The position numbers were made by a program, and so were the translations under genes. Positions 3,592 through 60,451 of a stretch of DNA of 64,000 nucleotides are shown piece after piece; position 1 is the stretch's first letter; the number at the start of each line of letters is the position of its first letter. The DNA comes from Lachnospiraceae bacterium (GTDB lineage: Bacteria; Bacillota; Clostridia; Lachnospirales; Lachnospiraceae): contig JALEIR010000079.1 of NCBI GenBank assembly GCA_022769665.1, positions 48,066 through 112,065 of the forward strand, written 5' to 3'. Under the pieces are notes generated by a model that saw only the letters and a program-made list of their open reading frames with translations, had not been told where the DNA came from and did not search any database.

Positions 3592-4881
3592 TTATTGCAT
3601 CCTTTCCAACAGTTTCTCCACGCTCACAAGTTTTACGCACAGTACAAACAAATCTGTAGCCTGTGCCATCTCTTCCGGGGTGGGGAAAGACGGAGCAATA
3701 CGAATGTTGCTGTCTTTAGGGTCCTTTCCGTAAGGGTAGGTAGCTCCCGCGCCGGTCAGCACCACACCCGCTTCTTTGCACTTTGCCACAATAGCCTTCG
3801 CACAGCCTTCCATTGCATCAAAAGAAATAAAATATCCGCCGTTTGGCTTTGTCCAGGTACCGATACCTAAACCTGCCAGTTCCTTCTCCAGTCCATTCTC
3901 TACCGCCTCAAATTTAGGCCGCATCAAATCCGCATGCTTTTTCATATGCTCTTTCATGCCTTCGATACCCTTAAAATAACGGGCATGACGAAGCTGATTA
4001 ATCTTATCGTGCCCAATGGTCTGAACGGTCATCTGGCTCTCGATAAAATCTATATTTTTCAACGAAGACGCAATGGCAGACACACCCGATCCCGGGAAAG
4101 TAACCTTTGATGTGGATGCAAAAATGTATACCATATCAGGATTTCCTGCCTTTTCACATTCCTCCAGAATATTTAAAATTTCATCCTGCCTGTCCTCATA
4201 TAAATGATGGATACAGTAAGCATTATCCCAGAATATACGGAAATCTTCCGCTGCAGGTTTCAAATTGGCAAATCGCTTCACAACCTCATCGGAATAAGAA
4301 ATACCTGTAGGATTGGAATACTTAGGTACGCACCAGATTCCCTTGACAGCCGGATCATTGTTCACATACTTCTCTACCATATCCATGTCCGGTCCGTCAT
4401 CGTTAAGCGGTACGTTTATCATTTCAATGCCAAAATACTCTGTAATTCTGAAATGCCTGTCATAACCGGGAACAGGGCACAAAAACTTCACCTTGTCCAG
4501 TTTGCTCCAAGGTGTAGATCCGTTGACACCCTTTATCATGGAACGGGACACGGTATCATACATAATGTTCAGGCTGGAATTACCACAGACTACCACATTA
4601 TCTTTATTGACAGACATCATATTTGCCATAAGTCGCCGGCATTCTCCGATACCATCCAGGTCACCGTAATTTCGCGTATCATTTCCCAATACGGTTCTCA
4701 TATCCGAAGCACTGCTAATCACATCCAGCATTGGCATAGACAACGCAAGCTGTGAAACACCGGGTTTACCTCTGGACATATCCAGCTTTAACCCTTTTCC
4801 CTTTGCGTCCTCGAATTCTTTCTCCAACTGATTTTTCAAAGACAACAGTTCCTCTTTGCTCAATTCCTGATACGCTTTCAT
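3592..4881 (-). CDS. PLP-dependent aminotransferase, class I/II (AspC type Ic)
   Basis: LDMSRGKPG, CGNSSLNIMYD, YSNPTGISYSDE, STSKVTFPGSGVSAIASS (PLP-Lys region). Confidence 0.88.
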   Translation of the reverse strand: MKAYQELSKEELLSLKNQLEKEFEDAKGKGLKLDMSRGKPGVSQLALSMPMLDVISSASDMRTVLGNDTRNYGDLDGIGECRRLMANMMSVNKDNVVVCGNSSLNIMYDTVSRSMIKGVNGSTPWSKLDKVKFLCPVPGYDRHFRITEYFGIEMINVPLNDDGPDMDMVEKYVNNDPAVKGIWCVPKYSNPTGISYSDEVVKRFANLKPAAEDFRIFWDNAYCIHHLYEDRQDEILNILEECEKAGNPDMVYIFASTSKVTFPGSGVSAIASSLKNIDFIESQMTVQTIGHDKINQLRHARYFKGIEGMKEHMKKHADLMRPKFEAVENGLEKELAGLGIGTWTKPNGGYFISFDAMEGCAKAIVAKCKEAGVVLTGAGATYPYGKDPKDSNIRIAPSFPTPEEMAQATDLFVLCVKLVSVEKLLERMQ

Positions 4882-14342: not shown

Positions 14343-16145
14343 ATGGCCTTTGACGGTGTAACGATAGCAAACGTAGTAAGTGAATTGAAAAAAGAATTGA
14401 TTGGGGGCAGATTGTATAAAATTGCCCAGCCTGAGGAGGATGAGCTTCTGTTAACAATCAAGCAGCCTTCCGGTCAAAAGCGCCTCTTCATCTCTGCAGG
14501 GGCCTCCCTGCCTTTGATTTATCTGACAGAGAACAATAAACCAAGCCCCATGACCGCTCCCAACTTCTGTATGCTCTTGAGAAAGCATCTCCAAAACGGG
14601 CGCATCACTGACATTTCCCAACCCGGCCTGGAACGGATTGTGCATATTCAGGTGGAACACCTGGACGAGATGGGCGATCTGCGCCATAAGACATTAGTTA
14701 TTGAAATCATGGGCAAGCACAGCAACATTATTTTCTGTAATGATGACAATATGATTATTGACAGCATAAAGCGGGTCTCCGCCGCAGTCAGCTCTGTCCG
14801 TGAGGTTCTGCCCGGGAAGCCGTACTTTGTGGCACACACACAGGATAAACTGGATGCCCTGACTGTCGGTTACAGCGAATTCCGCGAAGCTCTTTCCGCC
14901 AAATCCCAGCCGGTCTTTAAAGCTCTCTACAGCAGCTTCACCGGCATCTCCCCCATTCTTGCCCAGGAACTTTGTTACGAAGCGGGAATTGACGGAGAAC
15001 AACCCACTGCCGCTTTGGAAGATACCGGATTTCAGTCTCTTTTCCGGGCATTATCCCAAATGGCATCAGCCATCCGGGAAGAGCGTTTTGTTCCCAATAT
15101 TGCCTATACAAACGGAAAACCGGTGGAATTTTGCGCCCTGCCCCTGACTATGTATGGTTTTTCCTCCCCATGTTCTGCTGTCGGCAGCGCTACAGACCAT
15201 TCAGTCTGTAAAAACTCCTGTGATTATACCGTCACCTTCGACTCCATGTCTTCCCTGTTGGAGAACTATTATGCGGAAAAGAATACCATCACCCGGATTC
15301 GCCAAAAGTCTTCGGATTTGCGCCGAATTGTACAGACGGCTCTGGAGCGGAATGTTAAAAAATATGATTTGCAAATGAGGCAAATCAAGGATACAGAGAA
15401 ACGGGACACCTACCGTATTTACGGCGAATTGTTGAACACCTACGGCTACAATGTCGAGCCAGGCGCAAAGTCCCTGGAGGCTTTGAACTACTACACCAAC
15501 GAGACAGTGAAGATTCCCTTAGACCCTACCCTTTCTGCCACCGAAAATGCAAAAAAGTATTTTGATAAATACGGCAAGTTGAAGCGGACCTACGAGGCTC
15601 TCTCCCAGCTGACCGAAGAGGTAAAGGCAGAAATTGACCATCTGGAATCTGTCTCAACAGCTCTGGATATCGCTCTCCACGAGGAAGATTTGGCTGAAAT
15701 AAAAGAAGAACTTACCGAGAGCGGCTATATCCGCAGAAAAGGCGGTACGAAGAAGCAAAAAATGACCAGCAAGCCTTTTCATTATATCAGCAGCGACGGC
15801 TTCCATATATATGTGGGGAAAAATAATTATCAGAACGATGAACTGACCTTCAGGTTCGCCACCGGCAACGACTGGTGGTTTCATGCAAAAAAAATGCCCG
15901 GCTCCCATGTAATTGTGAAGCTGGGCAATGCAGAAGAACTGCCTGACCGAACCTTTGAAGAAGCAGCACGCCTGGCAGCCTACTATTCCAAGGGACGTGA
16001 TCAGGAGAAGGTGGAAATCGATTATATCCAGAAAAAGCATGTCAAAAAACCTGCGGGAGCCAAGCCCGGGTTTGTGGTTTATTATACCAACTTTTCCATG
16101 GCAATTGACAGCGATATTTCCGGAATAAAACAGGTGGCGGATTAG
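14343..16145 (+). CDS. rqcH: NFACT-family RqcH (Rqc2 homolog, former fibronectin-binding protein A)
   Basis: MAFDGVTIANVVSELKKELIGGRLYKIAQPEEDELLLTIK...; NFACT-R GNDWWFHAKKMPGSHVIVKL. Confidence 0.93.
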   Translation: MAFDGVTIANVVSELKKELIGGRLYKIAQPEEDELLLTIKQPSGQKRLFISAGASLPLIYLTENNKPSPMTAPNFCMLLRKHLQNGRITDISQPGLERIVHIQVEHLDEMGDLRHKTLVIEIMGKHSNIIFCNDDNMIIDSIKRVSAAVSSVREVLPGKPYFVAHTQDKLDALTVGYSEFREALSAKSQPVFKALYSSFTGISPILAQELCYEAGIDGEQPTAALEDTGFQSLFRALSQMASAIREERFVPNIAYTNGKPVEFCALPLTMYGFSSPCSAVGSATDHSVCKNSCDYTVTFDSMSSLLENYYAEKNTITRIRQKSSDLRRIVQTALERNVKKYDLQMRQIKDTEKRDTYRIYGELLNTYGYNVEPGAKSLEALNYYTNETVKIPLDPTLSATENAKKYFDKYGKLKRTYEALSQLTEEVKAEIDHLESVSTALDIALHEEDLAEIKEELTESGYIRRKGGTKKQKMTSKPFHYISSDGFHIYVGKNNYQNDELTFRFATGNDWWFHAKKMPGSHVIVKLGNAEELPDRTFEEAARLAAYYSKGRDQEKVEIDYIQKKHVKKPAGAKPGFVVYYTNFSMAIDSDISGIKQVAD

Positions 16146-16156
16146 TCCGCCACCTG
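16131..16156 (-). terminator. Perfect 11-bp-stem terminator for the Rpn gene, embedded in the last codons of convergent rqcH
   Basis: CAGGTGGCGGA-TTAG-TCCGCCACCTG; on minus strand followed by TTTTATT and located just past the Rpn stop. Confidence 0.8.
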
Positions 16157-16157
16157 C

Positions 16158-16328
16158 TTACCGATTCATTTTATTAATGATAGCTTCCAGTTTGCGTACC
16201 TTCTCTTCCAGAGCATCCGCTCTGGCCTTCTCGCGCTCTGTATTTGCCCGTTCTTCTTCTCTGCCTTCTTCTCTGCCTTCCGCCCGTCCTTCTTCTCTCA
16301 TATCATCGTCATGCAGTAATTCTTTCAT
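16158..16328 (-). CDS. Candidate intragenic small ORF (RpnS-like C-terminal product, 56 aa) nested in frame in the Rpn gene
   Basis: Minus strand AAAATGGAGGTCAGAGTATATGAAAGAA: GGAGG, 9-nt spacer, ATG; product MKELLHDDDMREEGRAEGREEGREEERANTEREKARADALEEKVRKLEAIINKMNR. Confidence 0.4.
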   Translation of the reverse strand: MKELLHDDDMREEGRAEGREEGREEERANTEREKARADALEEKVRKLEAIINKMNR

Positions 16329-16952
16329 ATACTCTGACCTCCATTTTTCGTTGCGCAGTCCCGCTTCAACGGCCTTTTGAAGCTTCCCTGTCAGCTCATC
16401 CATCGGTTTCCCTGTCATTATGTATCGGAACAAAGCCTGCATATCCTCCGGTATTTCATCTCCCTGACAAGTACAGTTGAAGAAATACTTCACCGTCCCA
16501 TCCTGCAATGCCAGTTCCGGTACCTCATCACATCTGTTCCGGAAGGTGTACTGCGGCAAGTCCTCCCCGAAAGGGTCGAAGGTACAGATGAATAAAATGT
16601 TCGTTTCCGGTAAGGTTCGGTACGACTGTTTCTTTTTCAGGTGGTCCGCATCCATCGAAGCCTGGTAAAACCGGCTCCGTCTGGGCAAGTCATAATCCTC
16701 GGGTCTTCTATGGTTCAGGTTCTGCATCTCCGCGTCGTAGACTGCTTCCCCGGCTCTGGTGTAAATATCCAGTCGGATAGGCTTTCCGTCCATTGCATAG
16801 CGGAATTCCCGTTGGGGCTCAATCCCTTCCAGCTCTCCCACCAGTTTTCCCAGCAGGCATTCCAGAACCTCTCTGCACAGCCCGCTGTCCTCCATGACCT
16901 TGCCGAACATGAAATCGTCCGACAGTCTCAGTTCCTCATAGTTTTTTGCCAT
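16158..16952 (-). CDS. Rpn family recombination-promoting nuclease / putative transposase (PD-(D/E)XK)
   Basis: MAKNYEELRLSDDFMFGKVMEDSGLCREVLECLLG...RLDIYTRAGEAVYDAEMQ...RSRFYQASMDADHLKKKQSYRTLPETNILFICTFDPFG; SD AGGAGGAGA. Confidence 0.93.
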   Translation of the reverse strand: MAKNYEELRLSDDFMFGKVMEDSGLCREVLECLLGKLVGELEGIEPQREFRYAMDGKPIRLDIYTRAGEAVYDAEMQNLNHRRPEDYDLPRRSRFYQASMDADHLKKKQSYRTLPETNILFICTFDPFGEDLPQYTFRNRCDEVPELALQDGTVKYFFNCTCQGDEIPEDMQALFRYIMTGKPMDELTGKLQKAVEAGLRNEKWRSEYMKELLHDDDMREEGRAEGREEGREEERANTEREKARADALEEKVRKLEAIINKMNR

Positions 16953-17178
16953 ATAGTCTCCTCCTGTGCTCCGGCAGGAGGCCATGGCATAAAAAGATTC
17001 ACTTTCTTTTTTGGCTCCTGCCTAATGATTGTTTGAAATATAAGCAGGAATCTAAAGAAATAAAAAGAATTAGATAGATAATGAATCCGTTTAGAAATAA
17101 CTGCTTATGCACGGATTATAACATAATTATTCCTCAATGACAATACGCTATATTCTTGCTAAATCATCTTTGGATTGC

Positions 17179-59062: not shown

Positions 59063-60451
59063 TCATGCTACCGTCAGATTTTTCACCCAGCGCTCTTTCT
59101 TCAGCCAGATGTAGGCTGCTATTACCTTCAAAATGTCCACAGACTTTACAAATATATACATTGCGACAGGACCTATTGGTGTTAAAAGTGCAATCAGGAA
59201 TGTCGACGGGATGATAATCAAAGTTCCGATTCCGTCAATCCACATCCCCATTTCCGTATCTCCTCCTGCCCGGGAGACGGCAAACTCTGTATTGTTGAAT
59301 ACCCACAACGGCATAAACAGAGCCATAAAAGTTACCATATCTCTGCAGATTGCCTGGGATGCGGCACTGAGGGAGCCAAATACAACAGGAATCAACAGTG
59401 TTGTCGCAAGGCCAAAGAAGCATACACCGATGCCGAACAGGATGGAGCCGGAGAATAACCACGTTTTCTGCTTTCTTGCCTCATCCAACCTGCCTTCGCC
59501 CAGAAGCTTTCCGATGATTACTCCCGTAGCTGTGTACACTCCGCTGAATGCCACGAAATACAAATTTGCGATGGCAAAGCTGGAGCTCATTCCGGATACA
59601 ACATCCGCCCCACCGCGGCCGTTATAAAGCGCTGTCGTTACTGTTTCGGACGCCACCCAGATTAACTCCGAAAAAATAATCATTCCGCCCTTTTTCAGAA
59701 TATCCCGGAACAATTTCCAGTCAATGCTTCCAAATGTCTTAAGGGTAATCAGGAAAGGCGGCTTCGTCTTTGCCACATAAATCAAGTAAATCAACATCTC
59801 AATTACACGCGCAATAATCGTTGCAACAGCTGCTCCTCTTACCTCAAGTCTGGGTGCTCCCAGATTGCCGTAGATAAACACCCAGTTGAAAAAGGTATTA
59901 ATCAGAGTTGCCGCTACAGATATCAACAACGGAGCTTTCACCCGCCCGATTTCTCTTAGGGAAGATGCCAATATGGATGAGATTACCATCGGCAAACCGA
60001 CAAATCCCATGAGGAACATATATTGTTCTCCCTGATCAAGTATCAGGTCAGCCTGTGTATTACCCATAACCATCAGGCTTAACACTGTACGCGGTATAAT
60101 CATGCTTACAATAATATAGATAATAAAGGCGGCTCCGGTTACAATGATTTTAAAACAGAGCGCCTGCTGCATCCCATGCTTTTCTTTTGCACCAAAATAC
60201 TGGGTAAGGAAGATTCCTCCCGCGGCACAAATGGCATTTGTCAATACCATGAAGACAAATAAAATCTGTCCGGCAATATTAACACCGGACATTTTCACAT
60301 CGCCCAGTCCGGACACCATAAAATTATCAATCAAAGACACCAGATTCTGTATCAGACTCTGCGCCATTATAGGCAGTCCGATTGCCAGTGCTGATTTATA
60401 GAAGGCTGCCGGACCGAACCATCGATACTTTTCCTCTTTTATTTTGTTCAT
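59063..60451 (-). CDS. MATE family efflux transporter
   Basis: ALAIGLPIMAQSLIQNLVSLIDNFMVSGLGDVKMSGVNIAGQILFVFMVL... 12 TM. Confidence 0.95.
   Translation of the reverse strand: MNKIKEEKYRWFGPAAFYKSALAIGLPIMAQSLIQNLVSLIDNFMVSGLGDVKMSGVNIAGQILFVFMVLTNAICAAGGIFLTQYFGAKEKHGMQQALCFKIIVTGAAFIIYIIVSMIIPRTVLSLMVMGNTQADLILDQGEQYMFLMGFVGLPMVISSILASSLREIGRVKAPLLISVAATLINTFFNWVFIYGNLGAPRLEVRGAAVATIIARVIEMLIYLIYVAKTKPPFLITLKTFGSIDWKLFRDILKKGGMIIFSELIWVASETVTTALYNGRGGADVVSGMSSSFAIANLYFVAFSGVYTATGVIIGKLLGEGRLDEARKQKTWLFSGSILFGIGVCFFGLATTLLIPVVFGSLSAASQAICRDMVTFMALFMPLWVFNNTEFAVSRAGGDTEMGMWIDGIGTLIIIPSTFLIALLTPIGPVAMYIFVKSVDILKVIAAYIWLKKERWVKNLTVA

Follow-up and report, generated by a model that had tools for sequence, protein, structure and literature searches.

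The window, by which we mean the whole 64-kb stretch of DNA analyzed here, carries on its minus strand an open reading frame of 264 codons, rpnL, that is preceded by a promoter and a structured 5′ leader and that contains an internal translation start (Table 1). The host had been taken for a gut Clostridium in the first-pass annotation, but the closest relatives point to a Lachnospiraceae-type bacterium, not to Clostridium sensu stricto. The predicted protein RpnL passes the cut-off of the NCBIfam model for the Rpn family, TIGR01784 (69.4 bits; cut-off 52.1), and matches Pfam PDDEXK_2 weakly, under that model's own cut-off (E = 5.6e-5). Residues D62 and E75 are invariant among the relatives that possess this region, the position of Q77 is mostly occupied by Q or E, and all of the conserved catalytic residues are present in the window gene, a full-length copy with promoter and leader. 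An AlphaFold2 model based on 49 aligned homologues has a mean pLDDT of 91, and its top Foldseek neighbours in the PDB are PD-(D/E)XK enzymes, with McrC ranking first at weak significance (E = 0.011); a sequence search of the PDB with the Rpn family profile gave no match. No PADLOC model matches the gene, and the phage and plasmid collections contain only distant Rpn relatives. The genes adjoining rpnL are housekeeping genes and do not form a defence island; this setting and the lack of a PADLOC match both weigh against a toxin-antitoxin reading. Directly past the rpn stop codon lies a hairpin that, from its sequence, is likely to be a terminator common to rpnL and the convergent gene, and which is absent from the output of a stricter terminator scan. 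Low-scoring Rfam matches in the window, such as one to CsrC, fall on this hairpin far under the gathering score and were rejected.

Table 1. Positions of the features of the rpnL locus, numbered along the window
Feature	Position	Strand	Basis
rpnL, full-length Rpn PD-(D/E)XK nuclease (proposed toxin); ATG at 16952, stop ends at 16158	16158..16952	-	TIGR01784 match
Catalytic core codons: D62 16769-16767, E75 16730-16728, Q77 16724-16722	16722..16769	-	Alignment conservation
rpnS, 56-aa in-frame C-terminal peptide (proposed antitoxin)	16158..16328	-	Sequence, start-codon conservation, AlphaFold2 helix
Internal start codon ATG, codon 209 of rpnL	16326..16328	-	109 ATG, 2 GTG, 1 ATA, 1 CTC in 113 homologues
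Internal Shine-Dalgarno GGAGG, 9-nt spacer to ATG	16338..16342	-	Synonymous scan and AGG excess
12-nt repeat, 3.8 copies (EGRA/EGRE four-residue units)	16253..16298	-	Tandem Repeats Finder
5′ leader RNA of rpnL, four neighbouring mutually exclusive pairings	16953..17109	-	43 aligned leaders
Leader segments	A 17107-17101; B 17050-17041; C 17023-17015; D 16980-16973; rpnL SD 16965-16960	-	
Sigma-A-type promoter TTGTCA-17-TATAAT, TG before -10	17115..17143	-	11/12 consensus matches
Hairpin CAGGTGGCGGA...TCCGCCACCTG, then TTTTATT on the minus strand	16131..16156	.	Read from sequence

The first-pass annotation had claimed a GGAGG sequence and an ATG within this gene that would yield a 56-residue in-frame C-terminal peptide, and this proved exact, the coordinates being confirmed from the sequence; the frame comprises 56 codons from the internal ATG to the stop codon that it has in common with RpnL. 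The accompanying claim, that this start is as good as those of most genes in the vicinity, also held when start strength was compared with controls drawn from open reading frames throughout the window. The Shine-Dalgarno (SD) duplex energy is -10.0 at the internal start and -10.3 at the start of rpnL itself, against a median of -7.9 for the gene-start proxy, and energies of -10 or below occur at only 2 of the 330 in-frame internal ATGs within long open reading frames of the window, the rpn site included. Elsewhere in the window, at 59251 on the minus strand, a long open reading frame also has an in-frame internal ATG preceded by a very strong SD (-10.3), from which a 62-residue C-terminal product would be made.

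Relatives were collected from 80 loci in GTDB species genomes, from 101 genomes within the same genus group, and from further stretches, and yielded 120 distinct open reading frames that were extracted and aligned, with 113 being scorable at the internal-start site. Conservation of the SD and ATG in close homologues, which had been put forward as a check on the proposed start, is strong: ATG or GTG occupies the start position in 111 of 113 homologues, both replacements by valine being GTG, and GGAGG at exactly 9 nt from the start is found in 84, with a comparable core at a spacing of 7-10 nt in 25 more. The remaining four homologues have no recognizable SD core, and two carry ATA or CTC as the start, exceptions that we weighed against the toxin-antitoxin reading. 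When upstream codons were redrawn from the synonymous codons of the same gene, a procedure that models shared ancestry incompletely, the mean SD energy at the site was -6.07 ± 0.24, compared with the native value of -9.24 (z = -13; 113 homologues), and a divergent subset of 21 sequences with less than 45% mutual identity gave -5.89 ± 0.50 versus -9.08 (z = -6.4). For the arginine whose codon completes the SD, AGG is used in 87 of 92 genes, versus a share of 24% among the other arginine codons of these genes (binomial 2e-47), and in 12 of 13 members of the divergent set (binomial 4e-8); at eight other conserved arginine columns the AGG share is only 16-38%. This codon ranks first of 151 columns for synonymous constraint (z = 14.6, runner-up 11.3). 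The second-strongest signal in the family alignment lies at rpnL codon 93 (Ser, AGC; z 11.3), where the existence of two serine codon blocks may be the source, and the third-strongest at codon 122 (Ile, ATC; z 8.5).

A purely protein-level explanation would hold that a conserved WRxEYM motif is encoded by codons that happen to read GGAGG...ATG, and it draws on the facts that Y208 and M209 are more than 90% conserved and that the tryptophan is always TGG. In homologues where the peptide has changed (to MEV, WEV, WEG, MGG, or LEE), however, different codons, even ones read in a different frame, have usually re-formed the SD, such that TGG-AGG (WR) is replaced by ATG-GAG-GTC (MEV), TGG-GAG-GTG (WEV), or CTG-GAG-GAA (LEE) at a spacing of 8 or 9. 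This persistence of the SD after replacement of both W and R, together with the synonymous tests, refutes protein constraint on WRxEYM as the sole cause, and we regard that explanation as barely credible. Because protein constraint alone is insufficient, these comparisons indicate that the ribosome site itself is under selection, and that the internal start is a selected feature of the gene and not a chance occurrence.

SD-like codons are able to slow ribosomes, and the site falls at the start of a predicted long helix, such that the sequence might instead be maintained as a programmed ribosome pause at a domain boundary, or as some other mRNA or DNA element. A pause, however, needs neither a start codon nor a fixed spacing, whereas nearly all homologues have ATG or GTG here, both valine replacements having taken the form GTG, and most have a spacing of 8-9 nt; in addition, separate RpnS frames that retain the SD exist (L054 and L035, described below). 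We therefore consider a role of this kind very unlikely and favour use of the site as a translation start. In other Clostridia, a strong internal SD and start were observed approximately 100 codons from the end of Rpn genes (L175, L176, L177, L178, L191, L193), at a position that differs from the Lachnospiraceae site. As other sampled Clostridia Rpn genes are without one, internal starts appear to be common but not universal in the class.

The peptide downstream of the internal start is predicted to be helical, with AlphaFold2 modelling residues 202-263 of RpnL as one long helix. The first-pass annotation had envisaged an inhibitor composed of an EGRE repeat and a coiled coil. The repeat is indeed located where the discovery paper on RpnS places specificity repeats: four-residue repeats 8-20 residues past the internal Met set RpnS specificity in E. 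coli (Zhong et al., 2023; PMC10327210), and the EGRA/EGRE units begin approximately 11-12 residues into RpnS, their number varying among close homologues. As to the fold, the AlphaFold2 model presents a single helix and not the compact three-helix bundle that is a property of RpnA-S, a difference that counts against the toxin-antitoxin reading. Since the C-terminal domain is described as highly variable (Zhong et al., 2023; PMC10327210), we do not treat the bundle as family-defining. The C-terminus of a paralogue in the same genome contains 5.6 copies of a 21-nt repeat encoding 7-residue DAQEARA units (L004 6310-6427), and these heptads, which parallel the four-residue repeats already published, likewise vary in copy number among close homologues. 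An RpnS modelled as a single long helix that varies by both 4- and 7-residue repeats looks to be new.

Seven nuclease-damaged or truncated copies retain the ATG and an open C-terminal frame, five of them with GGAGG and two (L164 and L165) with a weak SD. A deletion between residues 48 and 98 has removed the nuclease core of the same-genome paralogue (G000:C29, L004 5756-6485) and shifted its frame, yet GGAGG-9-ATG persists, followed by an open C-terminal frame of 87 codons. In L149/L170, the leader runs directly into the terminal portion of the gene, with the internal start preserved; in L164-L166, frameshifts interrupt the nuclease part while the C-terminal frame stays open; and in L035, a truncated copy with the internal start (1712-1933) sits beside a complete rpn gene. 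In L054, RpnL is cut short by an insertion immediately before the internal SD, and RpnS is left as a separate frame with its own SD. This small insertion (approximately 3630-3730) bears a strong hairpin (CTCCCCCGATC...GATCGGGGG) and splits the gene between RpnL and the internal SD. RpnS thus occurs as a separate gene in relatives (L035, L149, L054). Retention of the start in broken copies fits an antitoxin that is kept after its toxin has been lost, but is only suggestive in this respect, as the nuclease is the larger target and first lesions are expected there; for this reason, we dropped the broken copies as proof of antitoxin selection. The ongoing decay evident in this lineage, in which the same genome holds a copy with a deleted nuclease core, could also be taken to mean that the window gene encodes an inactive or domesticated nuclease in which the internal start is an ancestral relic. 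The integrity of the window copy, which is full length and possesses every conserved catalytic residue, the promoter, and the leader, renders this highly improbable, and a presumably functional nuclease gene with a selected internal start is the reading that we retain.

The promoter is conserved upstream of the rpn genes of relatives, and is followed by a leader of approximately 155 nt, of which we extracted 43 examples from the window, the paralogue, and relatives. Within this leader, neighbouring segments have the potential to pair as A:B, B:C, C:D, and D:SD, the last involving the SD of rpnL. In 42 leaders, each of these native pairings is stronger than its partner-swapped counterparts, with 0 of 2000 swaps reaching the native value, whereas the non-neighbour controls A:C (P = 0.82) and B:D (P = 0.24) are not stronger than swaps; this test, too, models shared ancestry incompletely, and the control segment pairs share that ancestry. 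For the combination of A:B and C:D, 97% of cells in the alignment are paired, versus 36-60% for slid versions, and covariation counts agree; for B:C, examined in a narrower alignment set, the figures are 94.8% versus 33-52%, with little covariation. A covariance model built on the A:B and C:D stems finds the leader in 44 of the 101 genus genomes, mostly before Rpn-like genes of several subfamilies. Among six downstream proteins tested, two pass the curated Rpn or PDDEXK_2 cut-off and three match these models weakly, the sixth having a single match, to a YhgA-type model, that is likewise weak. In 20 new leaders from outside model building, the native pairings were again stronger (A:B, P = 0.0006; B:C, P < 0.0002; C:D, P = 0.0018; D:SD, P = 0.0010), and the controls A:C, B:D, and C:SD were not significant.

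These pairing patterns suggest that the leader is apparently a switch that gates the rpnL ribosome site and is common to several Rpn subfamilies in Lachnospiraceae. The leader, considered by itself, resembles translational attenuators and riboswitches, in which successive segments pair as 1:2, 2:3, 3:4, and 4:SD, but differs from them in that no Rfam family matches it (18 sources) and no conserved upstream leader peptide was recognized. The literature searched contained no RNA motif linked to these nucleases. The leader is thus apparently undescribed so far and may constitute a new RNA class; its repeats may also have a role at the DNA level.

Two further occurrences of the leader were noted at other kinds of gene. 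At L130 1500-1640 (G000:C55:27218-27356, minus strand), a leader near-identical to that of the window up to segment C lies directly before a gene for a TetM-like ribosomal-protection GTPase. A general antibiotic-resistance attenuator was considered on this account and rejected, as the match ends after C and extends to neither D nor the rpnL SD, so that this leader looks like the relic of a lost rpn copy. At L147 1503-1930, the gene behind the leader is not rpn but a short DUF4160-like one; the leader there looks intact, D and SD included, and may have been captured by another small gene.

An arrangement of this type has experimental precedent. In E. coli, an internal start gives rise to RpnS, which binds to RpnL and suppresses both its cleavage of DNA and its toxicity (Zhong et al., 2023; PMC10327210), the inhibition having been observed both in vivo and in vitro (PMC10327210). 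The first-pass annotation had placed this precedent in Enterobacteria, which is correct for E. coli but too narrow: a C. difficile rpn gene expressed in E. coli also makes RpnS, and mutation of its ribosome-binding site and start abolishes the product (PMC10327210, SI Fig. S2C-D), thus providing a Gram-positive precedent. The window gene resembles both the C. difficile rpn gene, in being a Gram-positive rpn gene whose internal start gives RpnS, as predicted for the window gene, and E. coli RpnA-E and RpnP2 (PMC10327210; PDB 7TH0), in which an Rpn nuclease gene likewise contains an internal ribosome-binding site and start that yield the C-terminal tail, four-residue repeats follow soon after that start, and stand-alone RpnS copies occur beside or in place of the full gene. 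In contrast to the E. coli genes, it belongs to a distant subfamily, its RpnS is predicted to be a single long helix instead of the three-helix bundle of RpnA-S, its close relatives have extra 7-residue repeats, it possesses a structured 5′ leader of a kind unmentioned in the main text of PMC10327210, and a consensus scan of the coding strand within the gene found no sigma-A-like promoter.

Small C-terminal products of internal starts need not be inhibitors. Cas11d, which arises from an internal start of the large cas10d gene of type I-D Cascade, helps its complex, whereas inhibition is the effect expected for RpnS here. It is conceivable that the internal start is used and that the short helix, which is a plausible oligomerization surface, is built as a structural subunit into a hetero-oligomer without which the nuclease would be inactive, comparable to Cas11d for Cas10d, and the sequence evidence, which bears on the start only, is silent on the sign of the effect. 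Yet in the sole system tested, RpnS acts as an inhibitor of RpnL, both in vivo and in vitro (PMC10327210), and nuclease-damaged copies keep the RpnS frame, which a subunit that is useless without its nuclease need not do. We consider an activating subunit unlikely. The RpnS-like antitoxin proposed at the outset gains support from selection on the SD and ATG and from the C-terminal frames kept by broken copies, with antitoxin activity being attributed by analogy with E. coli. We judge it probable that the window gene is an RpnL/RpnS toxin-antitoxin gene-within-a-gene, a kind already known from RpnS production and inhibition in E. coli and from RpnS production by the C. difficile gene (PMC10327210). 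By the same analogy, RpnS would be produced in this organism and would inhibit RpnL.

Under the mechanism that we propose, translation of the full open reading frame would yield RpnL, a PD-(D/E)XK DNA nuclease expected to be toxic when free, while ribosomes initiating at the internal GGAGG-9-nt-ATG would produce RpnS, the 56-residue C-terminal helix. RpnS would pair with the same helix in RpnL, and the resulting mixed complex would hold the nuclease inactive. As the prediction for RpnS is only that of a helix, a mixed coiled-coil pair represents the simplest model; we infer this mode of helix pairing, as well as an anti-phage action of the system. The 4-residue repeats, and in relatives the 7-residue repeats as well, could set the register so that only a cognate partner fits. 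In the leader, A:B together with C:D would leave the rpnL SD free, whereas B:C together with D:SD would hide it, and RpnS would escape this gate through its own SD. The ratio of RpnL to RpnS would then rise in response to a trigger that makes the leader refold from B:C and D:SD into A:B and C:D. How RpnL is released from RpnS is a question that was left open by the discovery paper (PMC10327210). In its fullest form, our proposal is that Lachnospiraceae Rpn constitutes a two-layer toxin-antitoxin module within one transcript, in which the intragenic antitoxin is translated from a separate ribosome site and the leader switches that of the toxin, that this switch is the missing release mechanism, and that the leader is a new class of cis-regulatory RNA extending across the Rpn superfamily. 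We give this larger proposal about an even chance of being correct.

Beyond the known kind, the present analysis finds the internal start to be under selection across a clade, predicts a helical RpnS that in relatives carries heptad repeats, and describes both a leader RNA and the recurrence of copies that have lost the nuclease. The comparative evidence at the nucleotide level indicates that the internal RpnS start is selected across a large clade of gut bacteria, and the RpnL/RpnS model would thereby be general, extending beyond the few genes tested, with the leader RNA offering a concrete candidate for how RpnL is released from RpnS.
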